The notes under the pieces are model-generated. The model saw only the letters and a list, made by a program, of their open reading frames with translations. It was not told the origin of the DNA and did not search any database. The position numbers were made by a program, and so were the translations under genes. 64,000 nucleotides of DNA from NCBI GenBank assembly GCA_003864495.1, contig ML133386.1, positions 3,421,375 through 3,485,374 on the forward strand, given 5' to 3'. Shown here piece after piece: positions 17,501 to 63,917 of the stretch (position 1 is its first letter; each line of letters begins with the position of its first letter). This DNA comes from Nemopilema nomurai (taxonomy: Eukaryota; Cnidaria; Scyphozoa; Rhizostomeae; Rhizostomatidae).

Positions 17501-19009
17501 ATGAACGATGAACTCAGGTTGAGTTGGTATAGTTGCGTCAATTTGATAGCATTTAGCAAAGCTAAGTTGGCTAGTCTAAGTTGAGTTCGACATCACAAAC
17601 CAACGCAATCGTGGTCTCTAAAAAGTGTTGCTTGTTAGGCAAAGAGCCTGGTTAAGCTAGATATTTTCAGCCGAAAATGTTTTCCACAAAACAATCTTCC
17701 AATGTAAGCAATCTTTGAGCCAATGAATGCACCAAATCTCAGATCCAGGTTCAGAACCTCTCCTCATTCTATGTTCCAGTTCGCAGTCTCAGTCAATTCT
17801 TCCCGGATTGTCACGAATGACATCGTCCTTGATTTATTGATTAATTAGTCTGATTAATAATTCATCACAAGGTATATTTTGGGTCACAGGCTTACACCCA
17901 CTACGTACGACGCATACAACCTTGTCTGTTTTTACACGAAGCTGGGCCCACATGCGGCATCTTACATTGTCCAGTATTCTTCTGAACACATTGCTTGGAC
18001 GTTTCATTTCCTTCTGCTGTGAAATTTAATCTCGCTTTGAAATTGGAAATAAACTTGCTGGCTGAAGACAATTCCCGTTACTTCTCGAAGCTCTGTCATA
18101 AATTATGTCAACAGTTTACCTCAATGTTGTGACGGAGGTTATCTAGCTATTATTGAACTGTTTAGGGGTGGCTGTTGAACCTTTACTTAACACTTTCATA
18201 ATCTTCACATTTTGCCCCCCCCCCCTCCAACTTTAAAAAAAAATCGTCGGCCATATCACCTGCGTTTAAACAACAAAGTGAACAAATCTCAACAACACGG
18301 GATGCGTGTGTTAAGTGTGCACGCTCTTGGAGGGCTCCCAGCGCATTTCTAGCCCAGTGGATGTGAATATCGTTCTTTGTTGGAAGGGCAAAAAAAGAAT
18401 TTAATCATAGATAAGGGTTTAAATGTTTTGCGTAAAGTTCATTTTCATCATCATAGAGTTTATTGTTAAAATTATTTGTCTTCAGTTCCTTTCCATGCGT
18501 TGATACGACTGTCCATTTTTTCTGACCAGAAATGTGATCCTTGCAGTGGAAGATGGAACTATCTAGTTTCAACAGAACGGAGGACGAAAATGACAAATAT
18601 GATCCGAATTTTTGTGCTAATCCTTGGGATTTTTTTACCGTGGCAGTTCAAACCGCAGCATGATGGTTTTGTTCATAAACAAGACATTCTGCCCCCCCCC
18701 CCAAATTTCTTCATTAAATACGTATCAATTGGGCGTTCACTTCTTTCATAATGGCGGATGTAAGATACAAAATTCTTACTTGTGCAAGAACTCAATACGG
18801 AAATAAAAAATCTGAGAAATTTGGTCTTGGATAAGCCCGTCGCACAATGGAAAAGAAACATGACAGTACCCCCGTTCTCAACAATGCAAATGCAAAGCTG
18901 CAAATAATCACAGCAGGAAAGGCAGTCGGCAGAAAGCTGGACAAACGGACGGCAACTGATCATTGGATGTCATCATTGACAAATTCGCCTTGCAGTACAG
19001 CAAGCTGGA
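14552..19009. other. Intergenic region with no supported gene
   Basis: This stretch of 4.5 kb between the ShK gene and the first GPCR has no convincing exon on either strand. It contains a ~31-bp direct repeat (about 15922-15952 and 16170-16200), two poly-C runs (about 18216 and 18692) and a weak LINE-like peptide trace near 17140-17180. The GPCR promoter and 5' UTR presumably lie at its 3' end. Confidence 0.55.
15922..16200. repeat. Pair of ~31-bp direct repeats
   Basis: CCATTAATTCATATATA..TTTTCGGATA occurs at about 15925-15952 and again at about 16172-16200 with only one or two differences. The copies are about 248 bp apart. There is no coding content between them. Confidence 0.6.
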
Positions 19010-19792
19010 ATGGCGGCGATAAACACGACGCAGAACGCAACGACAGTGAACCCATGGCCTTACGTCGCACTGGATCCCAAGCAAGGACTCATTCTGTTCC
19101 TGATTACGCTTCCTGGCACAGTCGCAAACATCGTTGCGTTCCTCACCACCCTCAAACTTACCAGGCAGCAGAAGAACTCGGCACCGAACTACCTAATCCT
19201 GGCATTGACATTCACCGATTTCTACGGCATCACCTTCTGCACTCTTCCCACCCTGATTTGCTACCGGTACAAGCGCTGGGTTGGCGGAGATGCGATGTGC
19301 AATTTCCAAAGTGTTTCGACGATGTTTGCGAGTCTGGCTTCGGGAATGCTCGCAACAGCCATGTCCTCGGACCGGCTCATCGCAATCTGGAAGCCCTTTC
19401 TCTACAAGAAGTACGTGAATTTGCGAAAGACCCTCATCACAATCGCCGTAACTTGGATTGCGGCCTTCGTCATCGCAATACTGCCCTTAGCAGGCGAAGG
19501 ATTCTTCGTGCGAAACCTAACGGGCACCTACTGTACCATCAACTGGTTTGCGGAACAGACGGCGAACCAAGTTTACGCGGTGTTTTACGCGATCCTCGGC
19601 GTAACACTGGTCAGCATTGTCGTGTTCTGCAACACCATGATCGTCCACTCGTTGCTGAGCTCGAAAAGAAAACAAAGCGGCCTGCATGGCCTGGCCACGC
19701 GGGACGAAGCGCGGGGCCAGTTCGAAATGCAGTTATTCAAGTCGGTGGGATCGATTTCTGTCCTGTTTCTTCTGTGCTGGTTCCCTTTCATG
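19010..19792 (+). CDS. Prostanoid-receptor-like GPCR, copy 1 (TM1-TM6 exon; TM7 exon not found)
   Basis: A 261-codon exon encodes a class A GPCR from the N-terminus to TM6. The N-terminus carries two N-glycosylation sites (NTT, NAT). TM1 starts near GLILFLITLPGTVANIVAF. Other landmarks are DRLIAIWKPF after TM3, GTYCTINWF in extracellular loop 2 and SVLFLLCWFPFM in TM6. The loop-2 motif resembles the GxWCFxxW of EP/IP prostanoid receptors, and the paralogue at 23606 is closely similar. The exon ends at a donor (ATG|gtgagt, phase 0) at exactly the same place as copy 2. No TM7 exon is visible between here and copy 2; reading on ends at TAA 19820-19822. It may use the copy-2 terminal exon, have an unrecognised one, or be a truncated duplicate. 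Codon third positions are much more GC-rich than in copy 2. The ligand is unknown; prostanoid is an inference. Confidence 0.75.
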
Positions 19793-22700
19793 GTGAGTCT
19801 CTTTTACAAACCAGTGCTTTAACCTTTCCGAGTCAGCCAGACTTTTCTTCTATTACTAATTCTGTCTAAGAATAATTTTTGAATAGCTTACTTAAGAATA
19901 ATCCACCCCACATGTTCTTCCATGGTATCAATATTGGTTCGAACTTCGGTCTTTACACGCGCACGACTATTAGACAGTTTTTAGACGGTTAAAATCTTTC
20001 TTTGGCATTAGAGAAATATTTTAGTACCTCTACAGCAGATGCATTTAGAAAAAGAGCACGGGTAGAATTAGAATATTGTTGTGTTTTGTTTGTTGGATCG
20101 TGTTGTGAATCGAGTAGAGATAATCGGCATCGACAAGGGAATCATTAGCAGAGATCTTCAAAGTTTCAAATCGCACGGAGAAATACTTGTCTTCTGGCAC
20201 CTAAAAGATTTTAACTGAAAATCAGCGGCTGTTTTGGCCTCGTTTACACATCGTATAAAGTGTCTTGATGCTACGTTCTGAGGTCTGGGACCCTGGCTAT
20301 AAATTGCGACTGCGTTGTTTATCAATCGCTGACCTCAATGGAATGCATCACTGCTGCGACTGCATACTTTGAAGTTAAACTTACTGTTTTTGAAGACAGT
20401 GATAGCACGTTTCACACATAATTGAATTTAATAGAACCACAATTACATAAGCTAAATATTGATGGTACGTACAAACAGAGGATACAAGCCTGACCAAAGT
20501 TAGAACGAATCGCAGTTGGAACACGTTGTGGCACTGACGTCACAAATGCCATTTATTTCCTTGCTCAGAGACCATTCTCGCAATATCCAAAAGGAGTACT
20601 TAAGAAGTCATTGCTATGAAGTAATTGCATGACAAGTAGTTTGCAAATGCGCCGGAGCAGAGAATCGCTAAGCGAAGAAACTGCGTACATTCGCACCTGA
20701 TTGACTCGAAATGGACTGCTTTAGCAAAATAGAAACTAAAATACTCCGGACAGCTCGACTCTGCATCATCATCCACAGGCACAATACCCTGGTGAAAAGC
20801 TAGCAAAACTTTCAAGGACATTTGAAGTCGGATAACGTGTTCAGCAATGCGACCATGCGTGTGCCTCAAGTGCTTTGCCTGTATTAGAAGGCCACTTTGT
20901 TATTATTCCACCATAAACAACAAAGTTGCAGATTACCAGTGATGTTTTGCACCCTAGTCCAATCGCTCACTTTTATTCACAATAGGAACTAAGAGATATC
21001 TATCCCAATCCTGTCACCTCCTGAAAGTTTCTAGGGCAATTTGCGGTGCAAAGATACGGGTGCAGTAGACCGTGACTAATTAAGCCGAGAAGATAACAAC
21101 AGGTGCGGACCAGAGAGGATGTTAAAGTCGCACCAAGAGATTTTGAACCAAAGCATTGTGATAGTAAAGATCATTTATCTCCGTATATCATATTTTACGC
21201 CGCTTTTAAACCCAGTTTTTTAATAATGGCTTCTTGCACGAAATACACGTTTCAAGGTCCCGTGGAACGAAGCGAGATGAAAAAAGAAGCAAGCCAACAC
21301 TTTGAAGATCAACATGTCTCTTCAGCCTCCCCAAATATTGATTCAAAGCCCAAGCTTAGCGCCAGAGTTAGAATTTTTTGCATGCTCTCATATGACCAGT
21401 GGTAGTTATAACTACCGGTTTTATCAACTGTGGAGGCGTTTAAAGGGCTGGGAAAATTTAATATCGGGCTTTTAATAGGAGCCTTCAAAGGGGTGTTGTC
21501 AGTTTTATGTGAAATGGAGCTGATAATCTTCCTGCGCTTGATATCACACGCCTTCGCAGGAAAAACCACCTCCGAAACTGAAAGACCCATCTTATGAGTG
21601 AAACTTGATCCGGGCATGGACCTCTTTCCTGCGTCATAACATTGTTTGAGTTGGCACTGCTTCAAAACGAGGCAAGCAGAAGATCGAGAGTAGGTTCAAG
21701 CCACTGTCGCATCAAGCTGGATGTAATTACAACACGTAGGCTCCTTTTCAAACTATTTCCCCTCAAACTCTTTCGCCGTTCTTTATCTTGTTGGAAGCAT
21801 TAAACTTGCGTTGTAGTAACTACAAATAATGAATGAAGATCGGTTAGGTTTGCAAATAGGTCTGACATTGGACCACTATTTTACATTTTACCATGCCCTG
21901 TGCGACGAAAGACTTGAACACGTGGATAGATATCATTTTCGACATGGGCAGTGAATAAGAGGAAGGCGGATCAATCTCATTTTTCATAAAAGGAGTCACG
22001 AAACAACAGGAAATGAGCAGCAACGAAAAAGTTGGGTTCGTAATACTAGAACCTGCCAAAGGAAAACTGTAATGAAAATACCCAGAAGTTGAATATAGAA
22101 GGTTCATGAATTCAACAAGGAAACCAAGTAGACAAAAGCGGGAAAATCCAAATCAGAGTTATAAGCGAAACATACTTCAACACCATTGCATCAAATGTAA
22201 ATAGAACATTTCACGTAGAAGCCCTCCTTGCTTCAATAAAATGGCAATTTCCAGAGCGTCAGTAAATGCCAGTTAACGACTCTCATTTTTACCAGAGCGT
22301 GTTCACTTCCCAAACCTCCCTTAATATATCAGTGAGATTGCAGGGATTTAGGCCATGTTTAAAACATGTTTAATCAAATCAAAGTAAATGGTGGTTCCCT
22401 CTCGTTTTTACTCAATCACTGGCACGCGAGCTATAAACAATTCAGTGTTGCAATTTCTCCTTCAAGCCCCGAATAAGGTCGCATTTTTCTCGCATATCTC
22501 CCTGGCTGCAAAGTTTTAATAAAATTCTTTCTCTGCTTCCATTGTGCGTTCCACTAAGTCTTATGAAGTATTGGATAATTCGATTTGAGGAGATGGCAAA
22601 TGCAATGGATACTACGACCACGCAAGAGGATATATATTCTTTTGAATAAAATCAACGATTCTAATGTCAGGTTTGGTATCCGGTTAAACTATGGTTATAC

Positions 22701-23605
22701 GTAAGTGAAATAATTGAGTTAGCTCGTTCATTTTCTATCTTTCAATATTACCGGATCATTCTACGCATTCAACGCGAGACCTTGCTCGACCCCTTCCTGT
22801 TCGTCTAAAGTTGATTAATTTCCCTGATCAAATTCATTCTAAAAGTCATTCGAAAACCAACCGCATATGATCAACTCGACATGAATATGGAGATGGTTTC
22901 TTGGAAGTGCAAAGGAAGTACGGAAGACGGAAGTGAATGGGAAGTGTTCATCGGAAATCCGGTGTACTCTCCCAGAAGCTAACACCACCATGCAAGCGCC
23001 AACACAGAATGAATTCCCACACCTTCTAATTGGTTGTCACCAAAACTGGGGGTTTCAGGGGGCAGTCTACGAGATAGTGACGGAAAGTAGGCGGTTTTCT
23101 TGAAACCAAGGAATCGAATATTGAATCTTATTCTGGATTTTGAACACAAGTTTTCTCGACTTTGAGATTCAAGAATATTGTTATACTCAGAGGCTGTTTG
23201 TTAAAAGAGCATTCACAAAAACAAACCACAATCAAACGAATAAAAAACAATGGGTTTTTATAAACGCTGACGCACTTATGTGGTAGGAAGGGAGTATTGA
23301 AAAAAGGGAAGACATTGTTCGTTATCTCTGTTTATGGTAAAAGGAAAGAATAAATCTAGGTGGGTTGTTATTTTGCTCTCGGAATTGTTTCTTATCGCCA
23401 CAAAAGATTGACTACAAAGGTTCCATGTGACTATTGCGGAGTTAACGAAGGTCAATGGACTGTTGAAAACCAACACAGGAAGCCGACCAGATATTAATTG
23501 ATGCTTGCCTGATGACGTAAATATTCGGTCTTTTGAACAAGGATCAATGCCCATCCAGTCTGCGATCGACTCTGCCACTGAAGTGCGGAAGGTGTTTAGC
23601 GGAAC
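19793..23605. other. Region between the two GPCR genes
   Basis: This 3.8 kb contains the open donor side of copy 1 and the presumed promoter of copy 2. I searched it for an exon encoding R...N..LDP..Y (TM7) and saw none. No other gene is supported on either strand. Confidence 0.55.
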
Positions 23606-26127
23606 ATGATGGCGTACAATCGAAGCACCGTGTTGCCGGCGACAACAAGTTTGCGAGAGAACTTTACCAACATTTATGGAGCAAATCAAACCACGGCTGC
23701 CACCCCAGACTGGCCATATGTGGCAATCCAGCCGAAACAAGGCCTGATTCTTTTTATCATTACATTTAGTGGTACACTCGCAAACGTTACAGCCTTGTTG
23801 GCAACGATAAAACTGGCTGTCAAGCAAAAGAATGCCATTAATTATTTAATAATGGCGCTTACAATTACAGACATGTATGGAATAACCCTGTGCACCCTAC
23901 CAACACTGCTTTGTTATTTGAAAAGACGGTGGGTTGGAGGTCTGGCTATGTGCAACTTCCAAGGAGTATCTACAATGTTTGCCAGCTTGGCTTCAGGGTC
24001 ATTGGCGACAGCTATGGCAGTGGAGCGCTTGTTTGCCATATGGAAACCTTTCGTCTACAGGAAATTTGCCACGAAAAGAAAAACAGTAGGCACCGTGTTG
24101 GTTATCTGGTTGTCTGCTATTGTAGTAGCCATCTTTCCGCTCTCGGGACAAGGAAATTTTGTTAGAAATTTGACAGGTACATACTGCACAGTTAACTGGT
24201 TTGCAAAGAACAAGGCCAATGTTGCATATGCGCTGTTCTATGTTACAATGGGGGTCACATTGGTTATAGTTGTGATATTTTGCAATGCTAATATTTGCTA
24301 CCATTTAATGCGTGCTAAGCAAAGAAGAGATAACTTGAGAGCTGACTCCCAAAAGAAGAAACTGTTGAAAACTAATTCGGGTACTGATACTTCAAAGGAA
24401 GGCAGAATTGTTTCAAGATCAAACTCAGATTTAGAAAAAGTTGGAGCAAATATGGAGAAAAGGAACTTAACTAGTGCATTGGAAAAGCAGCTGGCAAAAA
24501 CAGTTGGATTAATATCCGTTTTATTTCTTATTTGTTGGGTTCCCTTCATGGTAAGTTTGGGGTCTTAGGGTCAACAGATTCACATCCAAGCTCATTGAGT
24601 TTATGGATCATTTCCAAGCAATTTAATGAGTTATGGTGAACTTTATAGACTATTGTACCAAATTTTAAGCACAATGTGCCAATGCACAAGTGCAAGTTTA
24701 TTTCAGGCGTGATGTTTGGCTATTCCTTATTTGTTCATTTTTATTTATTTGAGACTATTGCAAGTTCATCTTTAAACTTACCATGTTTTACCCATTTCAC
24801 TTTAATCAACGATCATAAGTTTCAAATGGGCTAATGCCTTTCACAGTTTATCAAATGGATATCAAATGTAAAGCTTTGTTCATGCAATGTAAATCTTTTT
24901 ATTACATAAAATTGTGGGGCTACATAGTAGGTAAAATATCCAGTTGCAATATTGTTTTTTTCTTCAGATTAGAATCATCTGCAATCTTACACGCACATGG
25001 ACTGATGCTTGGGTTGATGTACAAGTAGCACGTTTACTGCTCCTTAACTTTGTACTGGATCCATTTCTGTATACACTTTCAAGGAAGCAGTGCAGGGACA
25101 TTGTCAAAGGTTGGTTTTGCTGTTGCTGCTTCAAAAATGGCAAAAGGTAAGAATTTCGCTTTGTTTTTAAAGTCAGTTTTCTGCACAGTTAGTACTCTGT
25201 AGCTCCTGCTTTGCCAGATTAACCCCTACTAAAAAACACAGTAGCCCCTAAAACTACCCCAAAAGAATTAGGCAGGTTAGCCAGAGAAAGTCAAAAGCCC
25301 CAAATTTTAGCCAAAATTTTGTATCAGACAAGCAGGCACAAAGTAACAGGTTTTGACTATTTTCAACATTGATTTGAATATTAAGTCTTTATGTGTGCAT
25401 TGTGCCATCACCACAAAGTTGTTTAAACAGCCTTGATTCAATGATTTATTTCTTAGAATGCAAGTTGATAATGAAATGATTAAATATGACTTAAGAAAAC
25501 AAGGAAGAATCATGATGAATCATTTTGGGCAGGGCAATAGGGCTGCATAAAAGAGGCCTTTTGAATTAGTAAGCTGATGTTAAGTAGATGTCTCATACTT
25601 GTAAATGTTTTAAAACCATTCACAGAAGTAAAATAGTGACAACTGTAATTCAAAGATAACATTATGGAAGGCGTTTGCTTGCTTAGTATTTCTTGATAGT
25701 TTATATTTTCATTTTATTTTCTTGAATTTGTACTTGAATTAGAATCAATCTGTGCCCAAAATGGTTTGCTGCAATGCGGACAAAACATGGGTCATTCCTC
25801 TCCTCGTCTGGCCATATTGCCACAACATCAACATCAACAAATGTTCAACTGACACAAATGAAAAAAGGATCAGTGGACACAACCCCTGAGCAATCAGTTA
25901 GTGATGTTGTTGTACATGCACCCATAATACATAGCCATAAAACAGAAGAAAATGACATGGAAGAAAATGCTGGTGCCATTTGTCAATATCAAATGAAGAG
26001 AGTAGCGATGGCTTTGAAGTCAAGCAAATGCACCGCATGCACTCTGAGGTGCATGCAAAGAAGCCAAAGAGCATTGAAGAAAAAACAATTTCAATGCCAG
26101 ACCTTGCAAGCAAAACTACTTCAATAG
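23606..26127 (+). CDS. Prostanoid-receptor-like GPCR, copy 2
   Basis: Three exons: 23606-24550 (phase 0 exit), 24968-25146 (phase 2 exit), 25743-26127 (stop TAG); 502 residues in this model. The N-terminus has glycosylation sites NRS, NFT and NQT. Exon 1 covers TM1-TM6, with VERLFAIWKPF after TM3 (prostanoid receptors typically have ERYLAI rather than DRY), GTYCTVNWF in loop 2 and LFLICWVPFM in TM6. Exon 2 encodes loop 3, TM7 (ARLLLLNFVLDPFLYTLS) and a cysteine-rich helix 8 (GWFCCCCF, a likely palmitoylation site). The Arg of TM7 aligns with the ligand-carboxylate-binding Arg of prostanoid receptors. Family membership is from remembered alignments; an EP2/EP4-like receptor is the best guess, and other lipid or orphan class A receptors remain possible. 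The C-tail reading frame is doubtful: an overlapping frame to 26198 looks more protein-like (see findings). The upstream paralogue has the same intron position. Confidence 0.85.
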
Positions 26128-28736: not shown

Positions 28737-28912
28737 GTTAGAATATCTAACGTTGTCCAAGACTCCATGATGTTGTTGATGCTGTGAAATCACAAGGATC
28801 TGAGGAGGACAGAATTTTCTAATGGCGGCAACTCCGGTAAACAGGAGTTAAAATCCTCTCTGTCCTATTACCTCAAGTTTTATTGAAGCAGAGTGGCTTT
28901 TTCATTTTCAAG
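28737..28912. promoter_or_regulatory. Bidirectional promoter between the 131-aa gene and INTS14
   Basis: Only 176 bp separate the two start codons, which face away from each other, so both 5' UTRs and a shared core promoter must fit here. No TATA box is obvious. The segment contains AATGGCGGC (28820-28828), whose GGCGGC/AATGGCGG core resembles a YY1-type site. That assignment is an inference from the motif only. Confidence 0.5.
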
Positions 28913-31594
28913 ATGCCGACAGTTATATTACTTGATGTTTCATTGTCAATGTCAAGGCGAACCAACGGGGCTGATGGTCGCAAGACGGAGACACAATTGA
29001 AGCATTTGGCTGAACACGGGATAAAGTTTTTCCTAGACTCGCTAGTCGAGAAAAGTAAACTAGAGTTTTCTGCCTTGGTAATTTTTTCATCTCTTTGGGA
29101 AATCGTTGTTCCATTTACTCGTGATTTCAGTGCTTTGAAAGCTGGTTGTCTGGATTTGGATGTTTATGACAAAACCCGAATCGAAAATGCCCTTCATGGT
29201 GTGCAGAACCTTGTTATGGAGGAATGGGGAGGATTCGTTCCAATAAATTTGATTCTTGTTACAGATGGTCGGGTCGGCACAGGGTCCTGTTCACTCAAGG
29301 AATCTCTGAGAAAACAAAAAGATGGTGGAGATGACTTTCCTTTGCCTTTCAATTTCCCGTGCAATTTATCAGTGATTTGTTTAAGCGACTCGCGGTTTGA
29401 TGAGAACTTCACAGAAAATATGAATTGTTACAAGGAACTGATCAAATTAAACAATAATAATGGAGAAATCTACATCCCAGAAATTCCACTAACAGAGCTG
29501 CACATTGAACACATATTTAAAAAAATTATCCAACTCCATTATGACTGTTTTGATGGATTGCTCACATGTGGGAATTTAAAATCATCCATAACCTTATCAC
29601 CAAATCCTGATTTCCGAAGCAGCTGGTTGAATCTTTTAAATCTATACAGGCCAGACAAGAAGAATTGTTTTCAGGTGAAAATGCCCAATGAGATAAGGGT
29701 GGTGGGATTTTTAGACATAGCTGATATTTCAAATCCACCATATATTAGCAGACACGTCGTTATTCCTGTGCCAAAGAATTTTCATGATGGGGAAAGTGAA
29801 ACTAAAGCTACCTCCAATGAAGATGATGCAAGAAACCCATCTTTTTGCGTCCTTTTGCATGGCAGTCTGAAAATTGAGAAGATGGTAGCCATTGTGAAGT
29901 TGGGGTACGTTTGTTACTCCTGTGTTCTGACATGTTTAAAATTTAGCTTCCATTCTATTGAAGATATCAATTAAGAACCTCTTTTGCAACTTCAAAGCTA
30001 AATCTCTTTAATTCATTTTCAAACATTTAACATAGTCCCTTTAAGTAGCTAAAAGATTGAGAAACCTTAGGTATTAAATTCTATAGTATAAAGGTCAATT
30101 TGCAATTTGAGTCCTCATGAAAGTCACACAACCAGCCTCCAAATTGAGGCAGGTTTTAAATATTGATCCCATAGACCCAGACAGGTCATATGAATCATAT
30201 CAATGTCATACATATCAAGATACTCAACATGGGCTAGGCAGTAACAGGGTTGCCTTTTTTACAGAACTAATTGGTTTGGGATGCTACATTCATGGTCTGA
30301 CAACAGAAAGAAGTCAACTCTCATGCTGTCAATATTTGAGCCAAATATAACAATATCATGGCTTGGAAACCTCAAGGACCTGGGGCCAGGTGCAGAGCTC
30401 AACCCCAATCCGTACTTATATGATCCAAAGGAGGAAGCAGAGGAAACACCCTTCCCTGTTCACCCAATTCGAAGACGGAGTTACCACTTGCAGCCAAATG
30501 TTGTTTGGATAAAAAATGCTGGGTTGCAGGTAAAGTCTGCTTGATTACTCAGCAATTCACTACAAAGAGATTTAGTTTAGAAAACATTTAGCTGTTAAAG
30601 AAACATAGGCCACCAGGTCTGCCATAAAATATGATTGCTGTCATTCATTGACTAAAAATTCAATGAAACTTTTTCCAACTCCAAAATTTTAAATTGAAGG
30701 TTTTTGATTCTCAAAAAGATTATGATAAACATTTCCACCCAAATAGGAATTTACTCTAAGCGCACAACCTGTCACAAAAAAGCAAGAAATATTGTCATTT
30801 GTGTTGAGAAAAGCATGTATGGTCATTCATTTGTTAGCCTAATAATATGAAAATAGTATAACTGTGAGGTAATTTTATGATTAATAGATAGTTTTTAGTG
30901 CTGTATTAAATCCACGTATGACACAGAAACAGCCAAGGAGATCATCTTTTTGAGTTCATTTGTTCTTATATAAGTCCTAATTTTTTATCAGTTCAAAATA
31001 TTTGTCTTATGTTATTACATATTTTCAACATTTTATGACTTTGATTTTCTAGTCTGATGTTCAGAAGGTTTTGAGGTATGCCAAGAAGTTGCCAGACAAA
31101 CATTCAGCTTTCTATAAGGTGAACAACTTACAGCAGATCTAAAATAATTATTAATTTTTGTATTATTTCTATTTAGTTTCTTTGATGATTGTTTTATGAT
31201 AATTCTGTAAAACATAGTCAGTTGGAAACTTGTTTTTAATTGTATAATAACATCTATAAATATATTGTAACTAGAATCAAATCTTTTAGACATTATGTTT
31301 GAACGTATGTCATTCGTTAAATCTGTTTAAGTCATAATTCTGAATCTTTTTTCCTGTAAAATGTTTATAACTTGATATCCCGTTCGTTTGTAGGAGCTGA
31401 ACAGAATTAGAAGAGCAAGCCTCTGCTACAGCTTTCATCAGCTTCTCTTTCATCTGGCAGATCTGCTTGAAAAGGAGGCGAGAAATTCATCAAAAGATGT
31501 TTCCCGCCAACTTGCAAATGCAGCTTCAGAATTAAGACTAGCACCAAAAAGAGAATTAGGAAGAAACATTGGACCACTTGAAAGTAGTGGGTAG
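28913..31594 (+). CDS. INTS14: Integrator complex subunit 14 (VWA domain)
   Basis: INTS14 (VWA9) is a subunit of the Integrator complex, which processes snRNA 3' ends and attenuates Pol II transcription in the nucleus. It works with INTS10 and INTS13. Four exons: 28913-29904, 30265-30529, 31053-31118, 31394-31594 (stop TAG); 507 residues against about 518 in human. The start MPTVILLDVSLSMSRR matches human MPTVVVMDVSLSM and carries the MIDAS-type DxSxS. Further matches are KLEFSALVIFSSLWE, VPFTRD, EWGG, VTDG, IADIS and FCVLLHGSLK. In the later exons, WFGMLHSW, VWIK.AGLQ, VQK.LR.AKKLP and FYKELNR.R match the human C-terminal half. An in-frame ATG ten codons upstream (28883) is ignored because human homology begins exactly at 28913. 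Exon phases are continuous (2, 0, 0). Confidence 0.97.
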
Positions 31595-48577: not shown

Positions 48578-50385
48578 AGATGCCAAGAAACATTTCTTCG
48601 CGATGGCATTCTACTTTAGACGTGGATGTTATTTGCTCTACGATGTTGGTTTACGGGTTCCTTGTAGGAGCCATGTGCTTATAGATCCGCCTCAATGAAG
48701 GAGGGGAGAGTCAATGCAAACTTATTTCCACGCTTTGGCAATAAGCATTTAGAAAGCCTCGACTTTCTCGTAGTTAGGTAGGGAGTTAGTGGTGAATTAT
48801 GTAGACTTTGTTGTTTGAAGAAAATGGGTGGGAAAAGCGCAGTGCGCCTCGATAACAAATGTAAAAAGAACGTTGGTGTAATTTCACTTGCCTTGATATC
48901 GTTGTGTTATTACAATTGTCTTCGAAAGAATTCTAATAGCTAATTGTTGGTGCAGTTTTTGTGTATTTTTTTCTGGCTACCAAATTATTTGTAATCGCCA
49001 AAAATTGGGATGGGGGAAACATGCCGGGGTGACAGAATGTTCGAGTTCTGGCGGGAGCTGCTATAGCTTTCTTCGCGAATCCTTCTCGACTAGCAATTGC
49101 TTGATTAAAAGGAAAAATTACTTTATAACAATAGAACATTATGAATAAGAAACATTGTAAAGTTTTGAAACAGGAACAATTTGATTTTGCAAATTAATTA
49201 TAATGCAGGCCGAAATAGGACATTTCCCATGAATTATTGCTCTCGAAATTTTTCCATTCTCCATTTTTCTCTAATTGCGCCACAATACGGGGAGTCGAAG
49301 TAGGTATAGGAAGAAAGATTCCAAGGTACGCATGCCAGACACACACACATGAGGTGATTAGAAGACAGTGGGGGTGCAAGCTGGTTGAATGTGGTGGGCA
49401 GATGGTCATGTTCTTTCTTTAAAAACACACGAAAGTATTGTTCTTGCATGAAATAAAAGCGACATCGTCAAAATCAATAACTCGTAATTGGCGTAGGGAA
49501 ATCCAGAAAACAAGGCGAATAAGAAGAGGCGAGAAGGTGGGAGAAAGGTTTGTGACATAGCATTGTGGACTAGCTGAGTTGCTGGCGGAATCGAGAACGG
49601 AATAGTGAGCGATTCAGTGTTACTATGACTTGCATTTAATGACATTTGCAAAAAAATCACTGCACTGAGAGGAAGGCAAGAAAGCAGGATGCACTTGCAC
49701 TAAGAAACGCTGCACTGTGCAGAATCGAATGTGCGAATCGTTTGCGCGTCTGCTAAATGCGTACATTGTGTTGACGGAAGCAGCGATTCGTCATTGGCTG
49801 TCGACGCAGAGGTTGATGAACGAACACTGAACGTGCTGTGACTGCCATAGTAACAATCAAAACAGACCCAAGTTTACGTTGAATTCAGAACAGTGTACAA
49901 AGGAATGTTTATGCTGAAGAAAATTACCCAAAGATAGGCTGCTTTAAACCACTGCTTTATTTGAACGAGTCTTGTTTTCAAAAGACAAATGCGATTTACC
50001 ACAATATAGGTTAGAAGCTATGCGGATTTCAGTCGAGCAGAAATTACATCACTAAATTGTCTGACCTTAATCGCCTGTGTTTCTGGTAAACTTGCAAGTT
50101 GGATTATCAAAATTTGAATTCACTGTAGAAAGCAAGAGGTCTCCGCAATCTTCGGTCGAGAAAATCGGTTCACCTTTTTGACTGATAAGCAGAAAGTGCG
50201 AATGTTCTAAGTAGCGGTCAAATCAAGTAAATTACGAAACAGTGCAGAAGTCCAACATTCAACAAGAAATTGTGGTACACGAAATCAAACTATTGTGAGT
50301 AAATGACGCTTTGGTGGATTGGCTACTTGGCTTCAAGTAGACGCAATAACTGCACAGAGGGTCTGCACGTTGTTACGAGGGAAGG
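48578..50385. other. Intergenic region, no supported gene
   Basis: This 1.8-kb region holds the GTF2A1 3' UTR and the presumed promoter of the RLS-repeat gene. The open frames around 49194-49660 on both strands overlap each other and have no recognisable content. Confidence 0.55.
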
Positions 50386-51264
50386 ATGTCAGCAAGGGCA
50401 AAGAGCTATTCCGGAACGACCAGAAGTGGCCGGACGCAAAGACCCTGGACCAATCAAGAGGATCTGCATAGAGCTGAAGAGGTAAGCGTCGAGGCCTTTT
50501 CCAGCTCATCGCAACGAGACAGTCTTTTGATACTACCAGAAATGAGCTATAGGAAGAGACAGCAAAGAAGATCGAAACTGCCAGGGCCTCTCAGGCTGCC
50601 GAAAACCTACGAGCCTCGCCTTTTGTCGCCGCTGCAGGAACAAATGCTTGCCCATAGGCTTAGCCGAGTTCCCGAAAGATGGAATGAGAAATACCTGGAG
50701 GACGCAGAACGAAAAAGAATGTTCGTAGCCAAGCGAGTGACCCCGATGGAAGCGGAAAGGATTGTGCGAAGATTGTCGGCGACACCGAAGAAGGACGAAC
50801 CAAAGAAGGAAATTGATCAGCATGAAATGTTGTTTGGGTTTGAGCATGACCACGAGCCGAAAAGCAACGAAGAACGGAAATTTGACGAAGGCGAAGTAGA
50901 GCGATTGGTGCAAAGACTTACACAGGTTAGAATAAGTAGTCGGGAATCTAGCGAAGATGAGACTTCTAGAAGAGGGGTATACATTACGAAGTATGAACTG
51001 GAGAAACTCACAGAGAGATTATCCAGGCCGAAGACGCAAGTTGATCCTGAGGCCGAGCAATTGAAAAGGGGAAGTGGCTCAAGGTTTAACGGGAAGAAGA
51101 TGAGCAAAACGGAGATGGAGGAATTCGTGAAAAGGATTTCGCGAAATGGTGCAAAAGTTGGTAATGACGAAAGACATCTCAGAAAGCAAGAATTGGGGTA
51201 CTTTGCAACGTGGACACCTTGTGATGCTGATTTCATAAAATGGCGGATGATGAATCGAAAGTGA
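50386..51264 (+). CDS. Intronless basic protein with five RLS-type helical repeats
   Basis: I do not recognise a named family. The single exon encodes 292 residues, highly charged and rich in Arg, Lys and Glu, with no signal peptide or membrane segment. Five copies of a short helical motif, roughly E-x-[ILVM]-x-x-[ILVF]-x-x-[RK]-[LI]-[ST], occur at about residues 82-97 (MLAHRLSRVPE), 120-135 (AERIVRRLSATPKK), 167-183 (VERLVQRLTQVR), 201-216 (LEKLTERLSRPKT) and 241-256 (MEEFVKRISRNGA), spaced 34-47 residues apart. Each places a basic residue just before Ser/Thr, so several would fit basophilic kinase sites. The repeats resemble the short periodic motifs of some microtubule- and sperm-tail-associated proteins; that is only an impression. 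The C-terminus ends YFATWTPCDADFIKWRMM. Translation could instead begin at the internal Met 53 (50542), just before the basic stretch SYRKRQQRRSK. The repeated motif in one frame argues against a chance open frame. Confidence 0.7.
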   Translation: MSARAKSYSGTTRSGRTQRPWTNQEDLHRAEEVSVEAFSSSSQRDSLLILPEMSYRKRQQRRSKLPGPLRLPKTYEPRLLSPLQEQMLAHRLSRVPERWNEKYLEDAERKRMFVAKRVTPMEAERIVRRLSATPKKDEPKKEIDQHEMLFGFEHDHEPKSNEERKFDEGEVERLVQRLTQVRISSRESSEDETSRRGVYITKYELEKLTERLSRPKTQVDPEAEQLKRGSGSRFNGKKMSKTEMEEFVKRISRNGAKVGNDERHLRKQELGYFATWTPCDADFIKWRMMNRK

Positions 51265-54147: not shown

Positions 54148-57100
54148 CTACCTTTTCTTGTTCCTTCCTTCTCTCTCTGGAATCGGAGGAGGTGAGCCAA
54201 TTTCTTCGTGACTTCCTTTCAGTTTAATTCGGTTTGCTGCTCTTGAGGGTATAGGTGGGGGCTGCTCACTGGAATTCCGTCTTGCTCGTTCTACGTCACG
54301 TGCTTTAAGGGGAATAGGTGGGGGCAGTTCAGCGACTGGAGACAAGCCAGTGTTCTCGTTCTACAAGATGAAGCATTAGAGAAGAGATAGAAACCACAGC
54401 AAGGTATACTGAGCTAGCCTTCTAAGCTTGTTTAGAATGCCAGTCAAGTCTTCATGACGTCCAGATGTCCAGTCAATGCTATTGGTCAGCAAGGGAATAG
54501 ATGGAAGAGGTTGGCCTGTTTCTGAGGAAGCCTTCTTGAAATGGCTTTAATATTGACATTTTTAGATCGGCGACCAAATCATGAGAAAGGAGGGATGAGT
54601 CGTGAGATTGATTGCAGGCAATGTAGAGAAATGTATAGTGCCAAAATGAAGCAAATCAGTCTGAGCATGCAGCCGCTTAATTCCCAGCACAGAGAACTAC
54701 AATTGCGGAGCTCTAGCTTAAAAGTCTTGGAACGTGAACCACAGTCATAACAGTATGACAATGAAGGTTTCCATAAAGCCTTTTGTTCGTGTTATGAACG
54801 AAGAGTCTTTGGTGGAAACACAGAATTGTGAAAATTACATTGAAATGAAACAAATAAATGAGAGTACCCTTCTCTGCTCAAGAAAGTTCTCCAGTTCAGC
54901 ATACAAGCACGTATAGTCAGAAGATTCACTTCGATCCTTGTAAGCAAAAAATGTTAATGAACAACGCTAGAATCAGATAGATGTGAATTAAACATTGAAT
55001 TGTTCTTCAAGAGACTTGCTTGCCTATAAGCAGAAGTATATTCGGTTACGATCATACAAAGAAAGAGAGGAGATGGGAAAAGAAAATGGCTAACTTAGGG
55101 GTATGAAAATAGAATCACTGGTAGATGGGTCAAGAAAAATGCGTTGAATGAGATCGCTAAAGGCATAGTGGTATCTCTGATATTGCTACATAGACCTAGA
55201 TTTGGACACCATCTTGCATGTGGACTGTACATTAAACCTACAAGTCAGCGAACACGTCTACAGTATAAGGGGGTAGCTTTCAAGGGGGTGGCTCGTGTAG
55301 AACCAGTTAGGCTTCCACGTGACTTACCTGGTCACATGGAACAGTAAGGACATCCTCTTCTTCTGTGACAGAAACCTACCGATGAAATGATAGTTGAAAT
55401 ACAGAACTGGATGTTGCTAGAAATACAACATTTTACACAAATAGAAATTTAATATCAGTTGCAAAAGCTCAATTACTTCACCTCAAGGGGACTGGGGGAG
55501 GGGTGAGACATCCTTGAAAAAGACGCCCCAGATGGTGATAAGAGTGCTATGAGAAACTGATTAGGATGACTAACTACCTGTAGACAGCACCTTTCTTAGG
55601 CTCAAGAAACTTAAGTACACAGTTTCTGGTGCAATAACATTTCCCACCCTACCAGCTTCCTTAAAACTCTAAATGCATTAAAGTATTATCAGGTGACATC
55701 AGAAAATCCCATCTGTTAAGCTTGATTTGAAGGAAAATACTTGATCGCCATCCAAAGACATGAAGTATTCATCCCCAAATGATAATTACAAAACATGTTA
55801 ATGGTTAATGCAAGCGTATGTTCATTTTTAAGCAAACAGCACGACCTGAAAGCACAATGAACTTTGATAAAGAATATGCAGGCACTCCTCGTACCTGGCT
55901 GTAATATGCAATGAGGTCGTGAAGGCTGACAAACGCTTTTGGCAAACCCGCGATGACGTACTTGCCAGATCGGGTTTGCTCTATGAAGAAGTGTTTGCAC
56001 CTGTAGGTGGACCTACAAAGAATCTAACGTTGAGCAACAGAAACTTCATGTGGCATGAGCAAACAAAACTAGGTGCAAGGTTTCAAAGGAGCCTGAGTAT
56101 AGCCTCTCAAATACCTCCAAAAAAGGAATTGATTAGCATGAAGTTTCGGCCGTTGCATTATATTCTTAATCAAACTCTTGCACCAATTTACATTGAAACC
56201 ATTTTGATTTCATTTGTTGCTTAATCATTAACCTGCTCTGACTGTGTATCAAAGCTTTGCCACCATCTTCCCATTGTTTCAAGTGCCTAGTCTTATAATG
56301 TGCTTATAATGTCAGCTAAAATATGCCTTGGAATGGCATGCCTGCGTGAGCTAAGATTAAGCGGTGTTTTCGGTAGCATAGTTGCAAACCAGTGCGCAAA
56401 TGCGGTTGGCTTACCGAGAATTGGTACCCATCATCCTTGAAATATCCTGTTCGAGGTTCCTGAAGAGCTCTGCTCTTGCATCAGGGAATCAAATGCCTTG
56501 CGTTCTCTTGGCGTAAGTGAATGCCCAATCCCACAAGTATAATACAGAAAACTCAACAGAAAACTCACTTGAATGATAAAGAATAGCCAAATTTTGTTTC
56601 ACTGACTCGGATCAAGAAACATCCATTTGGTTTATCCCTTAACAGTTGCTCGGCTTTCCTGCAACAAAACAAGTACAAAACCCATTTGAAGGCCAAATAT
56701 ACCTTTCTGCAAATATCAACAAGGCTTTGATAGCAACCAACCTCATTAAAGTAGATTTTCACAGTCACTGAGGCATTGAGGGGAGATCAAATTTTTTAAC
56801 AGTACCCTGGTTAAGCTGTATAAAGATGGCACAAGTTTCTATCAAACAATAACGACTGACTTAATAAATGGGATGTGATGGTAACCAAATTCAAAACATG
56901 GTATTGCAAAGATTCATAGAGAGTGCGGAAAAAAAACCGACCAGAGTGGGACCCTTGGCGACCCTTGACTTTGTACGCCAAGTGCTCTACCACTGAGCTA
57001 TCGGGTCGGTTATTTTTCCGCACGCTCTATGATTCTTCGTAAGAAATCCTGCTGCCTATGACCTTATTGTAAAGATAAAAGACATTAGAATTCACCCCCA

Positions 57101-60100
57101 AAAGTGTCCCCCTATGACTTGTTTTTGTGTCACACTCGCTTAAACACGAGGAATACTGCGAGGAAGTGGTTTCGTGAGAAGATGCAACTGAAGAAACAGA
57201 TGCTTCAAAAAGGTAAAGGTTTAAAATTTCTGCAATTCGATAACAGACCACTTTTATCTGCTACGCCCACATAACAGAAAAGTCGGTGATTTGGTATCGA
57301 AAACTGCCTGATTCCTTATCTCGGCTCATTGGAGCAAAACTGATACGTGACGACAGGTTTTCTTAAGGCGATAAAACACCATGCATAATTGATGTATGCA
57401 TCCAAAGTGTCTTCAAATAAAACGGGTAGTGTGACATTTCAGAAAACGCTGGTTCTTTAGGATTCTTAAAAGTTTAAGTAGGTGAGGTCATTTTAAAACT
57501 CGACAAATCTTGGCACTGAATTGAGAATTGAACACAAAATATTTTGTTTAAATTGCCCTTAAATTCAATGTCTGGTTGCTCTTTGGTTGAAATAGCAAAA
57601 ACGACGAAGATTAAAGACGGTCTAGGATGTTGAACGGGTACCAGTAATGACGTCATAACAACATGAACAGCGGTCTTTTCTTGCAAACAACCCCCACCTG
57701 TATACAGAGTTTGCTGATGTCGCAAATCGAAGTTGCTGGGAAATAAATGGACGATGAATATACCTTCTTGGTATCAAGCCATGGAACCAAACATCAGGGT
57801 TGCCCGTGGATCCGTTGACAGCACCCTTTGGTATTTGGGTCTCTTGAAACCAACGGGCGGCGCTAGGCAAAACAGAGTTTATTACAGGGGCAAAAAGGCA
57901 AAAAGATAAAAAGTGTATTCAGCAAGCTACAACAAAATGGTAAAGAGAGAAAGCGAGAATATGTGATAGCAGTATTAATAATAAGTGGTTTTAAACTTGG
58001 AGGTTTTTTCAAGGCTGTAACTACAATGCCCGCTAAAAGTGTTGGAACAGTCCAATCATCTTTCCTACTAAACGCCTCCCTCCCCCATATACAATGTTGG
58101 ATTCCGACTGGAAAATGACAACAGATGTATGTTGGAGCGCAAATTGTGTAACCCATGTTTAGCGACATGTTCACCTACCTTCACAACATTGTTTAAGGGG
58201 GGGGGGGGAGAGAGGGTTCTGTCTGCTTGGAATAGGGAATGAAGTGAAAATATACATTTATTACGAGTACAGTCCCGGTGTGTCAACTACTTTTGGCGGG
58301 CATTGTACCTATTTTCTCATTAGAGATCGATTAGCCCAAGTTTGAATAAATAAATATCGTTCATCCCAAAATTAAAAATTTAACAATTTAACTGAGGTTT
58401 TTCTTGAGACTAACCATATTGCGCTGTTAAGTAAAGACCGCGAGGGTTGGAGGTTAATGCCCCTGATTGTTCAATCTACATAACGTAACCCTCAAAGTAG
58501 CCTTCGAAAAGCTTTCCTTGATTACCCAAACCATAATGAACAGTTACATCATATTCCGAAATCTCACTCTTCGCTGGCAATCGCCCGAGATTTTCAATCT
58601 AGAGTACCCTGAGTGATCAAGCAACGACCATTATCGCTGCTGGTGCGTGACAACCATACACAATTGCCACTTGTCTCTTGTGATTTCAGGTGTTTTTACA
58701 GTTTTCGCGATAAGAGCAAGCAGAACGACAAAATAGTCAAAACATAAAGTTATCAGGGCTCCTTGATTTAAATTCGAGCTGGTTTTCGCAACTGATTGTT
58801 CACGTTTTTCGTTACGAAGTAAAGGTGATACACCTACGATGATAATATAAATGTCATTGTTTATACTTTGTTCATAAGTGATGCCGGGGCCCGAAAAAGC
58901 AGTTTCGGGGTACAGAAATATGAAATGTGCTTAAAAGGGCTGCATTGGCAAAACAGAATGCAATTCCTATTGTAGCTGAATGCTTGTTCATAGTTGTGGA
59001 CCAGTATATCCACAACCCCCATCTCTCATAACCCTGCCAACTAAATAAATCCTGCCGTTTAGACAGAGTAAATAAAAAACGATGTATTTTTATGTATTTT
59101 TTGTCTGTGACATGGCTGGAAAACGTTCAAAAAAAGAATACCAATAAAAGAATCAACTGTGAAAGTCTTTGACTTTAAATTAGGGGGAGTGCAGCAAACC
59201 TTGTATTCGATCGCTTTCAAACCTCTTCTCCATAATACAAGATTTGTTTAAGTGAATTCGACCTACATATGGATCCAGCCAAATACAATCCATACCAGGC
59301 GAACTCTATGACCAATTAGTGACGTCAGCTTGCGCCCAGTACTAAATTTCATGATGACTAGCGCTTTAAATATAAACACATACGCCTTCCTGGTCCCTGC
59401 TCTTCCGAGCCTGTTGTGGTCGTACTTTGGGGTTTGTTTGAAGGTGTCTTCTTCTACTTCCAAACCATCTTCGTCTATTTCCTGCTCCGAAACTTCTTCT
59501 ATAGACGGTTTTCTCGAAGGCCGAATGACAACATTTTCCTTGGGATCGACCATGTTGGAAGGAGGCAGTGGAAACCACTCTTTTTCAGGCACATAAGAAG
59601 GAGATAGTGGCGTGAAATCTGTCGGAATTGAGAAGGGTAATTAAGTGCACAGTAAGAAGGGCAAAAATCAGAAAGGCATTGGGAGGCGGAGAATAAAATT
59701 TTGAAAAGTAGCAAAGGCTAACAAGAGCCAGGGTCTGGTCTTGCCTATAAGTATTCTTAGAAGGGAAAGGGAAGATGCATTTAAAAGGGTCTTTGAAAGG
59801 GTTCCTTCATTCGCACCAAACTAATTACACGTCCTATAGATTCTTCTGAAACACAAGCTTACGTGAGTTCACCTAATGCATCAGCCCTGGAATATAAGAG
59901 CCTTTGTGAATGGGGGGCGTCTTGCTTAATCAGGGCCAGTCACTGTGATAACTTTGGTGAAAATGCACTTACGCTGCTCAAAAGATAAATTTTGATAAAC
60001 CTGAGGCAATTAGGCAACGGTGAAGGCCATAATTTGCAACCTACTCTTGGGAATCTTATCAAGGGAAGCTGCCTTAATTCCAATAAAGTTCCCAACTCTC

Positions 60101-63100
60101 TCGACGTTAGAGAGAAAATTATAAACGGTTTGTGCCTCTTTTTCAGCCAACAGCCTCGTTTGTCGCACTTTCCGTCTATCCAAGAATCCTCGCACAACTG
60201 GAAAGAGAGAAAGGTGGGAAACTTAGTAAAACATCAGAAATCGAATCAAGAAAGCCCTTTATAATCAGTAGCATTTACTAGTATCTTTGGTTTTCCTTAA
60301 TTAGAGAATGAATAAATAATGAAGTTTACTTTAATTATCGCTTGAACCTGCCTTTCTTAAACAAAGTAGATGATTTTAATGAAGGCACATAGATAATAAT
60401 GAGACAGTTTGAATAACGATGGCGCAGACGTCTCTATTTATGCTTATCACTAGACTCTGAAAAGACTTTGAACACAGCTGCGCGTGCTTGGAGCCACTAC
60501 GTGCCCGCTAAAATTCCAAGGAATCAGGCAAAATTTTCTATACCCCTAGTCTGGCTGCCACCTCTAATACACGTCGAGATTTCCTGTCATAAAGATGCAA
60601 TGTTGGAATCATATAGTGTTATTGTTCGACACAAGCTTTTAATTTTGCATGAAGAAAATCGGACGGCCGTCACTGACAAAAAGTATTGAGGTTATGATTC
60701 CTAATTCCAAAGATCATTTGGATGAGTAGGGATGTAAATAAGGACAGACGCATCGTTTTACGAGAAACTAAGCAAGGGCCCTGATTTATTACCTTGGTTT
60801 TGGGGGTTTGGTTACGTAAAGTTCCTTATTGACTGTCTTATCGAAAAACCTGAAATAACGCTGACGGGTCACAAGTAGCTTGCGATAAGAAGAAAAAGGA
60901 TCGGATGGATAACCTGATATACATGCTTCAAGATTAAAAAAGACAGCAAAGAAACTCTTCTGGGGCTGCCACACTGTATAACTTAATTTCTTAATTCATT
61001 TATTCTCCAGCCATGAACTGTCTTGTGAATTGTCTTCTCGTAAAAGGATGCAAGACTTTAGAATGCGAACTTTAGAACACAAAAGGTAAATTGGCTTGTG
61101 ATATAAACCTTTGCGTGAAAAGCGCAAAATCATACAACACTATTTGTTTAAAATCATTCAACTTTCAAGCTGGAGAAACAACGACCCGATTGTTTAATTA
61201 CTTTCAAGCACTCTTTCATTGGATTCTACTCTGATTTGCCGGGGTAAACATGGAGACAAAACGGGTTGGCAAAAGAAAGCACATTTTGAAAAGCGCGTTT
61301 TGAAAATCTCAAATTGCCTGCAGCGTTTATGGTTGATGGGGTTGAAATAATCATTTTAGAGTTCTGAGAAAGGCGGGACATGACCCCCTTTTCTGAAATC
61401 GAAATTCAGGCAAAAGCTTCTTGAAAGCTGCGAAATTCATCGTGGGCAGGGGGGATGGGTTGTAAAATTGCAACAGGGTGTATCTTGGAATAAGACTGCA
61501 GTGATAATGTAAAGTTTGAAAACAGGGGCCTGTTGTCTACGCACAGATTGACAGACATCAAGGAATTGTTCAATTAACTGAACTTTGTAGATAAGAAAGG
61601 CAAACAACCTTAAAGTGGGCAGGCATGTACACAAAATGCACGTTGCAGATCTTTAACGAGTTAAACTTTTAAAATTGAAAGTGGATGAACGAGATGCTGG
61701 CCAGAATGCAACCCTTGATTTTTATGTTAAAACACTGTGACATTCGAAATAGTTTGAAAAATAGGCCTATTGTTACACAAAGGCAGCGAGTAAGAGCCAG
61801 GTAGAATTCCAGGTGATATGTCATAATGACAACACAAAACCCATTTTCAGTAAAAACGTGAACGAATTTATTCAACATTGAGACATTAAAAATCAAGGAA
61901 AATTTAGGAGCGATATGAGACAGTCTTCATAACACTGATCTAGGCCATTGTTGTGAACTCGACATGAGAACTGGCATGATTATACATACATTCAACTCCC
62001 TTTCAAAATTTCCACTGGTCCATCATTGAAGTCAGTGGTATCCCAAACGCCCTTATCCATTTTAATTACTCATTTATTTTTCTTTCTTGTTTATACCTGA
62101 GCACGTATACCACGAATGTGATCCTGCTAAGCTTTGCCGTAGATGTGGATGTAGACGATACGAGGAAAAACTTTGTGTAAATCTTTCTCTGTAAATAATA
62201 TACACAATAGAAGACTCCTGGACACACAAACCTCTTTGGATATGGACAGCGCATTTGTCAAGCCTCCGAATATATTGGGACAGAACATCCAAATGATAAT
62301 ATTTCAGGAAAACTTTGGTATGCCTTGAAAAGTATTGTATATTGAAAGACAATAAGATCAATAAAGAGCACATAAAATAAGGCTAAAATCTCTAGCATTG
62401 GAAAAAGGGATTCTTAATGCTATACAGACGTAGGCGCAATGATGTACAAAATAGATGAAAATAGATTGCATTGCTAGACAACAGCAGAAGCACATTTGTG
62501 TTCAATCAATATCTCCAAAAACTACTGTAAATAGAGGGAAAATTGCAATAGAAATAGCTATAGAAAGGTAAAAGCTATAGCAGTTTCCTTTAAACAGGTG
62601 CTAAGAAAGAGCAGGATTCAAGATGCAATAAATCATATTCATTATATGATTCGTGTTAATTTGCAAGTCTAGATTGATAGCGTCATCTCAAGAAGTCATT
62701 GAGACAGTAAGCCTATAAAAACGATAAATGCATAATCACAAATTCATGTTTGTCGACAACCTAAAATCAGTCTGCAAAAATACTTGCCAATCATAACCAA
62801 TGAGATAAAATTCTAATAATTGGAAAATGTTTAACGAAATCAAAGATTTAACATCCAAATTGCACCATTCAATGAGATGGTAAAACAATGCAGTTAGTTT
62901 CAGGCGAGGAATACCAAGGATCGTGAACTAGTTCGAGAGATCAATGCTACTCCCTGCTTGAATTGCACATCAATTGCATGAAACGAATGATCACTTCAAA
63001 TAAAAACACCTACCCTACTTTCCAGTGGTTCATCTTGGCAGTGTGCAGAATCCAAGCACAGGACTGCGCGGTCGGAGGCAAGCCGAGATCTAGCGAGATC

Positions 63101-63917
63101 ACCTTGTACCTAAAGCAAAATCGTGGGTCCCTTGATTCATAAATGCTATAATACCAACGAACATGCAAAAAGGCCACATCCACATGATGACGACATAGGA
63201 ACACTTTGCAGAGCGACAGCAATGCGTGACATGGTACAAGTCTCTGCGTGGACCAGACATGCAACAGTAGAGCAAACAACGTTACAAAAGAATACATACA
63301 AAACAATAACTATTAAATACAAAACAATTTGTCCACTTTTACTGTTAGCGAAAACCCCGATAAAAAGCCATTTTAACATTCTCAGAATATTGCAATGGCG
63401 CTATGGCAACAACAAAAGTTTTGAAACTTAGGCAGGGCGCAAATTGCCTCTGTGAAACAGAACAGACAGTGGATAGGAAGAACTTGACATTGATAAAACG
63501 TCGAAAAATTATTTACTGGAAAAGCCCAAAAACATCTCCCCAGTAGGTGACAGTGTATGGGCCTCAGAAGAAATGACAGATCATAGGAAAGGTAATCACT
63601 CCAAATACCAATGCCTGGTTATTTGAAATAAAGCAAAGGTTGTTCTCACAAAGAAAATGGGACTTAACACCAAAACTCACTTGCTGACAAAGTCCTCAAA
63701 CGGAAGCCTAACGGAGTAGCCATCTTTACGAATTTTGGTCGTTTCCAGGATACCTGTGTAATTCAGCTAGAAAGAAAAACTTTAACGTTAAATTTAACTA
63801 GAATTTGACTAAAAAAAGAGCTGGAAATTTGCTCATCCCTACTGCTTATCAAAAATTGCATATGAAAGAACATTATACCTGTCTCCTAACGTATTGGAAG
63901 TCGAATTTCGAAGGAAC
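54148..63917 (-). CDS. Unconventional myosin with IQ motif and C-terminal SH2 domain (3' part; 5' end outside window)
   Basis: This is the C-terminal 467 residues of an actin-based motor that also carries a phosphotyrosine-binding module. Minus-strand exons: 63917-63879, 63766-63681, 63109-63014, 62323-62232, 60197-60045, 59618-59384, 57862-57764, 56658-56569, 56000-55895, 55668-55578 (tentative), 55362-55328, 54936-54868, 54360-54148 (stop TAG). Residues 1-100 are the end of the motor and converter: FDFQYVRRQLNYTGILETT, RLPFEDFVSKY, NHWKVGHTKVFLKYYH. One perfect IQ motif follows at 102-112 (IQRVVRGFLDR). An acidic, Pro-containing linker (156-236) follows. The SH2 domain starts at WFHGLIPRRKAEQLL (259-273), with FLIRVSE holding the phosphotyrosine-binding Arg (about 284), CKHFFIE with the betaD His, then SLHDLIAYYSQ and LTVPC. 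The tail has DYTCLYAEL and three PPPIP motifs (410, 431, 454). All joins keep phase. I recall an SH2-bearing myosin class (XXVIII) in myosin classifications; unverified. The motor head lies beyond position 64000. Confidence 0.9.
56911..57035. mobile_element. Short element with inverted ends around a tRNA-like sequence (SINE/MITE-like)
   Basis: The 125-bp block has arms of about 27 bp: ATAGAGAGTGCGGAAAAA on the left matches, inverted, TTTTTCCGCACGCTCTAT on the right, and the pairing continues into CCGACC/GGTCGG. GATTC flanks both sides, consistent with a 5-bp target duplication. It lies in the myosin intron between the exons starting at 57862 and 56658. Confidence 0.6.
56937..57009 (-). pseudogene. 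tRNA-like sequence, degenerate
   Basis: On the minus strand, a 73-nt segment has a canonical D-arm and A box (TAGCTCAGTGGTAGAGC). Its acceptor-stem halves GACCCGA/TCTGGTC pair with one mismatch. A CTTGG stem could pair either with TCAAG or with CCAAG. The T-arm lacks the TTCRA loop, and no anticodon can be assigned with confidence. A T8 run, usable as a Pol III terminator, follows. It is most likely a tRNA-derived repeat core rather than a functional tRNA. Confidence 0.5.

Follow-up and report, generated by a model that had tools for sequence, protein, structure and literature searches.

A probable class-28 myosin of the jellyfish Nemopilema nomurai with a one-IQ lever and a C-terminal SH2 tail

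Introduction

Does a myosin motor of the scyphozoan jellyfish Nemopilema nomurai continue into an SH2 domain within one gene and, if so, to which myosin class does the product belong and what might such a tail do for an actin motor? The question is raised by the window, a 64,000-nucleotide stretch of DNA (C22:3421375-3485374), in which an earlier note had read one minus-strand gene in continuous phase from a motor through an IQ motif to an SH2 domain, and had mentioned an SH2-containing myosin class. Such a class exists: class XXVIII was defined in 2007 by an IQ motif, a short coiled coil and an SH2 domain (accessible part of PMC2375034) and is named class-28 in the accessible part of PMC5583752. 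In the open literature searched, mostly by title, these two classification papers were the only ones found and no experiments on class 28 were found. The architecture is already described as a class; relative to that literature, the jellyfish member, the comparison of its tail module and the cnidarian TEDS serine are the additions made here. The gene probably encodes an unconventional myosin of class 28 (XXVIII), in which an actin motor is followed by a short lever of one IQ and, at the C-terminus, by a phosphotyrosine-adaptor tail.

Results

Organization of the gene

The region was read exon by exon on the minus strand between window positions 53900 and 64000. Minus-strand translation and splice-site assembly give 12 in-window exons, which run in phase from exon 19 (beginning at 63917) to a stop codon ending at 54148; each is preceded by AG, the first 11 are followed by GT and all phases are compatible, confirming the continuous phase first read by eye. 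Exon 19 (63879–63917, minus strand, as are all that follow) encodes the motor after the CIKPN stretch (VPSKFDFQYVRRQ) and matches VPSKFDFLYVRRQ of the Rhopilema protein P0001. The translation of exon 20 (63681–63766; LNYTGILETTKIRKDGYSVRLPFEDFVS) belongs to the converter region and exon 21 (63014–63109) to the converter, while exon 22 (62232–62323) holds the converter end and the start of an IQ motif, the remainder of which (IQRVVRGFLDRR, spanning exons 22 and 23) is followed by a helix in exon 23 (60045–60197). Exon 24 (59384–59618) encodes an acidic linker that has low confidence in the AF2 model of the Rhopilema relative. The gene model, the tail alignment and AF2 place the WFQETQ helix and the SH2 start (WFHG) in exon 25 (57764–57862); the SH2 domain continues through exon 26 (56569–56658), which in model and tail alignment carries the FLIR arginine (R891), and exon 27 (55895–56012), which encodes its second half, and in the alignment it ends in exon 28 (55328–55375; VSVTEEEDVLTVPCDQ). 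The conserved post-SH2 tyrosine motif DYTCLYAEL, found by alignment and motif, lies in exon 29 (54868–54936), and exon 30 (54148–54360) holds three PPPIP motifs fitting PxxPx[RK] and the stop. The IQ and FLIR exons have exactly the borders, 62323-62232 and 56658-56569, that the earlier note had assigned to them.

A Pfam Myosin_head search of the genome (212.9 Mb) located head exons beyond the window on the same strand and contig, and in the 30 kb extracted there 18 further exons, including the motor head, are sited within the first 11 kb, supplying the upstream head on which the initial reading depended. The probable start Met is at extended position 75044 (C22:3496418). The full model comprises 30 exons and 1,052 residues, including one X, over about 21 kb, and the motor match begins 6 residues after the model start. 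Donors are GC rather than GT after exons 4, 7 and 9 (extended 73027, 70842 and 69782; outside the window), that is in 3 of the 29 introns, and the reading there is concordant with P0001.

Head exon 14 (extended 66766-66648; C22:3488022-3488140; outside the window) contains a one-base frameshift at a homopolymer, which is perhaps an assembly error or a real allele. The exon is present in one copy in the assembly, and P0001 is open through the same region. The frameshift and the single copy are what would speak for an inactivated pseudogene, a reading we hold to be very improbable given that the remaining 29 exons all have an open, continuous frame, that the head retains 84% identity to Rhopilema over 708 columns and that the lesion sits at a homopolymer, where long-read assemblies are often wrong.

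Elsewhere in the window, on the plus strand, two similar rhodopsin-family receptor frames (18980-19819 and 23600-24565) match 7tm_1 with 127.5 and 123.5 bits, a frame at 28841-29971 resembles Integrator complex subunit 14 (IntS14_b-barrel, VWA_2), and a 304-residue open frame at 50350-51261 with repeated [IVL]x[KR][LI][ST]-like stretches has no Pfam match. In the rest of the genome the contig pairs C67/C153, C53/C201 and C61/C70 bear equal-scoring SH2 or myosin exons and are perhaps unmerged haplotypes.

Motor and SH2 domain in one protein

A Pfam search of the joined protein, in a draft still lacking two loop-2 exons, returned Myosin_head (9e-205, 682 bits) and SH2 (PF00017; 5.7e-18, 65.2 bits), so that the complete-looking SH2 domain with its FLIR-type arginine, noted earlier by eye, is recovered by profile. 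At E 0.001 Pfam returned no IQ domain for the draft; the IQ motif after the converter, IQRVVRGFLDRR at 709, was assigned by motif. The layout in order is thus motor, one IQ, helix, WFQETQ helix, SH2 with the FLIR Arg, DYxxL and three PxxPx[RK]. The AF2 model of P0001, built with 58 sequences (mean pLDDT 80.6), displays the motor, a single post-converter helix at 730-795 where a short coiled coil would be expected, low-confidence linkers, a helix at 880-891 that contains WFQETQ and a confident SH2 domain.

The closest protein among the matches listed, which are the best 120 of 7,976 above threshold, is P0001, a 'myosin-IIIb-like' protein of Rhopilema esculentum (1,093 aa, 75% identity, 100% query cover). 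Both Pfam domains, Myosin_head and SH2, occur in one protein in 116 of these 120 homologues, the other four (P0002, P0055, P0080 and P0082) having Myosin_head only. Named invertebrate sources include sponges, corals, many molluscs, an annelid, a brachiopod, a bryozoan, a rotifer, echinoderms, hemichordates and amphioxus, and vertebrate ones include bony fishes, sharks, rays, axolotl, tortoise and alligator; no named mammalian member is among the best 120 of 7,976 matches. Since vertebrate SH2-only adaptors carry the same tail module, the locus could in principle be a myosin gene and an adjacent gene for an SH2 protein that were joined by eye. However, phases are continuous across the exons from the upstream head to the stop, and the two domains co-occur in the homologues as described; in addition the contigs of P0003, P0006 and P0007, only 3.3-3.6 kb long, each hold a complete reading frame (1,029-1,075 aa) that encodes both domains, and these contigs are likely transcripts because the jellyfish gene extends over about 21 kb. 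On the exon phases and the two-domain homologues the two-gene reading was rejected, its chance being close to nil, and the earlier claim that motor and SH2 domain belong to one gene holds.

The motor and its relatives

The jellyfish motor has the P-loop, switch I and switch II. Across 58 aligned relatives these motifs vary little or not at all, a conservation suggesting that the ATPase cycle is important. Among solved motors, myosin VIIa and myosin X are nearest in sequence, and a fold comparison of the P0001 AF2 model puts myosin X first. The loop-2 motif RTG[TS] is present in 118 of 121 class-28 rows and in none of 96 other matches (mostly named myosin III), none of three PH myosins and neither of two MH2 myosins; loop-2 RTG is, as far as these sequences go, a mark of class 28.

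In a maximum-likelihood tree of 37 heads the 26 SH2-type heads form one group (80/91), inside which the window gene pairs with Rhopilema (100/100) and then joins the other cnidarians (90/91). The jellyfish motor thus groups with the SH2-type myosins of Nematostella, fish and reptiles, whose tail of IQ, helix and SH2 it also has. The Nematostella isoform listed ends inside the SH2 domain and is counted among the 26. Myosin III together with the MH2 myosins, and the three PH myosins, one of them named Salpingoeca, fall outside the group, which is retained (79/96) when the long rotifer branch is removed. The tree lends the class moderate support as one group (80/91), with one distant row as outgroup: P0122, cut to 760 residues, is the sole outgroup, the myosin-VII-like P0124 having been dropped for its overlong span.

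Two further pairs occur in the same tree. A second, longer SH2 myosin, P0123 (eukprot scpid22251, 1846 aa), pairs with P0032 (100/99), which from naming like that of P0123 is probably of sponge source; the P032x rows with 'scpid' names are taken by us to be Sycon, again from the naming. The MH2-domain myosins P0225 (Owenia fusiformis, annelid) and P0146 (Corticium candelabrum, sponge) pair with each other (99/98) beside myosin III. The Owenia protein was considered as a new myosin and dropped, as MH2 myosins are already described in the accessible part of PMC5583752, which covers class-80 and related annelid and mollusc orphans.

By motor score the next class is myosin III (681 bits, with PH myosins at 677), and public annotation labels many class-28 members 'myosin-IIIb-like'. 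Membership of myosin III was rejected because Pfam finds no N-terminal protein kinase from the model's start Met onward; myosin III differs further in that loop-2 RTG and WFxxTQ are absent in all 96 other matches, mostly named myosin III. The SH2 myosins of choanoflagellates and filastereans, which likewise combine motor and SH2 and are likened to the jellyfish protein by description rather than by sequence, are assigned to a 'myosin III-like' group in the accessible part of PMC3942036.

The TEDS position

Following the TEDS rule, the position was read 16 residues before the DALAK-like motif. The residue is Ser in the jellyfish gene, in contrast to Glu in 101 of the 114 readable class-28 rows (7 of 121 were unreadable), the remaining rows having 9 Ser, 3 Asp and 1 Gly; Glu also occupies the position in all 96 myosin-III-type matches. 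The single Gly belongs to P0029, by reading of its sequence, the P0029 model being without that stretch. The serine rows are the jellyfish gene, Rhopilema, Pocillopora, Stylophora, Nematostella, Porites, two cnidarian-like rows and one brittle star, and thus all eight readable cnidarian or cnidarian-like copies have Ser (P0002 is called cnidarian-like by identity, being absent from the tree, and P0003 by the tree). Therefore cnidarian members may need heavy-chain phosphorylation, as their sequences suggest.

Conserved features of the tail

Of 121 tails, 119 were aligned (two dropped), and the set was thinned at 80% identity to 82. The SH2 arginine is kept in 80/80 tails, and the presumed βD5 residue, its position assigned by Src and SH2 residue numbering, is aromatic throughout (Tyr 61, Phe 19 of 80). 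As to binding of a partner's phosphotyrosine, what is seen to be conserved is the Arg and the βD residues. Upstream of the SH2 domain the WFxxTQ motif is almost invariant (W 82, F 81, T 81 and Q 82 of 82). After it, the only columns above 90% of the 82 rows are D (75/78), Y (74/78) and L (77/80) of a DYx[ED]L motif located about 9 residues beyond the conserved PCGQ; the next-best column is a proline near the end, 67/69 filled. The strict motif occurs in 103 of 118 readable class-28 rows, and the jellyfish differs from the class in having DYTCL in its place (DYTCLYAEL, against DYEDLYAEL in Rhopilema) as well as in its three PPPIP motifs. PxxPx[RK], a pattern resembling SH3 ligands, follows the SH2 domain in 48 of 79 tails of testable length, against 13.0 expected by shuffling, and is absent from the other 31.

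The best solved match of the SH2 domain is HSH2D (2cs0, 1.3e-19), which the accessible part of PMC9783222 gives as a pY-x-N binder. Class-wide conservation is a sign of importance and not of partner. The SH2 domain of one molecule might bind the phosphorylated DYxxL of another, in the manner of STAT dimers, and so turn single motors into two-headed ones. DYx[ED]L is the sole post-SH2 motif with columns above 90%, the aromatic βD5 would allow it, the group-I SH2s include a pY-acidic-acidic-hydrophobic type (same part of PMC9783222) and the Src preference is pYE[ENY][IML] in the accessible part of PMC2271153. Nonetheless, this self-pairing appears quite unlikely: HSH2D is listed with another preference, pY-x-N, the acidic residue is replaced by Cys in the jellyfish motif, the strict motif is not universal in the class, DYxxL also occurs in SH2-only adaptors that have no motors to pair, and AF2 confidence in P0001 falls from 81 (1001-1010, the DYEDL block) to 65, a structural role for the motif being possible.

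A tail module in common with HSH2D and SH2D4

Six aligned tails, used together as a query, retrieved 101 proteins which, besides class-28 pieces, are mostly HSH2D and SH2D4A/B. These adaptors share with the jellyfish gene (WFQETQ, SH2, DYTCL) the tail module WFxxxQ-SH2-PCGQ-DYxxL and differ in having no motor, the jellyfish gene having a full one ahead of the module. WF...Q precedes the SH2 domain in 50 of 62 readable rows of the HSH2D block (P0246-P0309 without P0247, which includes unnamed rows and myosin fragments) and in 13 of 14 rows of the SH2D4 block, although the stricter WFxxTQ is found in only 7/62 of the former; the strict DYx[ED]L follows in 36/62 and 5/14, respectively, versus the 103/118 of class 28. 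In a tree of 40 SH2 domains, for which the HSH2D and SH2D4 rows were chosen for matching class 28 and the contrast was 10 other SH2s, class 28, HSH2D and SH2D4 stand apart from those 10 (98/95); class 28 is one group (93/91) and the HSH2D rows are not. Both motifs are absent at 8 other SH2 loci of the genome, a weak control in which WF...Q was hardly tested, as the best matches at 7 of the 8 have fewer than 45 residues of open frame upstream. Titles and abstract openings in the open literature searched yielded no paper tying HSH2D or SH2D4 adaptors to myosins.

A tail built as an adaptor module common to HSH2D and SH2D4, on a lever of one IQ and therefore short, is also what would be expected of a scaffold, in which actin binding by the motor anchors a phosphotyrosine signalling complex with little transport or force. 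The near-invariance of the nucleotide-site motifs over 58 relatives argues against it, and we consider a scaffold the less likely role.

Discussion

For the class-28 myosin described here, the natural reading is a phosphotyrosine-directed placement of an actin motor, which we infer from the domains and motifs of the protein. The SH2 domain would dock the motor on tyrosine-phosphorylated proteins in the actin-rich cortex, filopodia or microvilli, and a phosphorylated DYxxL tyrosine together with the PxxPx[RK] motifs could recruit further SH2 and SH3 proteins. The motor would then tether signalling partners or carry them along actin, and tyrosine-kinase signalling would thereby decide its pulling site or its cargo. 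In cnidarians the TEDS serine might provide a second switch on the motor, operated by a Ser/Thr kinase. A bolder version, in which class-28 proteins are phosphotyrosine-switched motors, the phosphorylated DYxxL pairs two motors through reciprocal SH2 binding, and HSH2D and SH2D4 are relatives of the tail that lack the motor, is a long shot.

Class 28 was named from sequence. The jellyfish gene adds a member with a complete head to a family that would link tyrosine-kinase signalling to an actin motor, from sponges to reptiles among the matches listed, and whose SH2 module is still found in two adaptor families, HSH2D and SH2D4. DYxxL, WFxxxQ, the loop-2 RTG and the cnidarian TEDS Ser are direct targets for mutational tests of how such a motor may be controlled.
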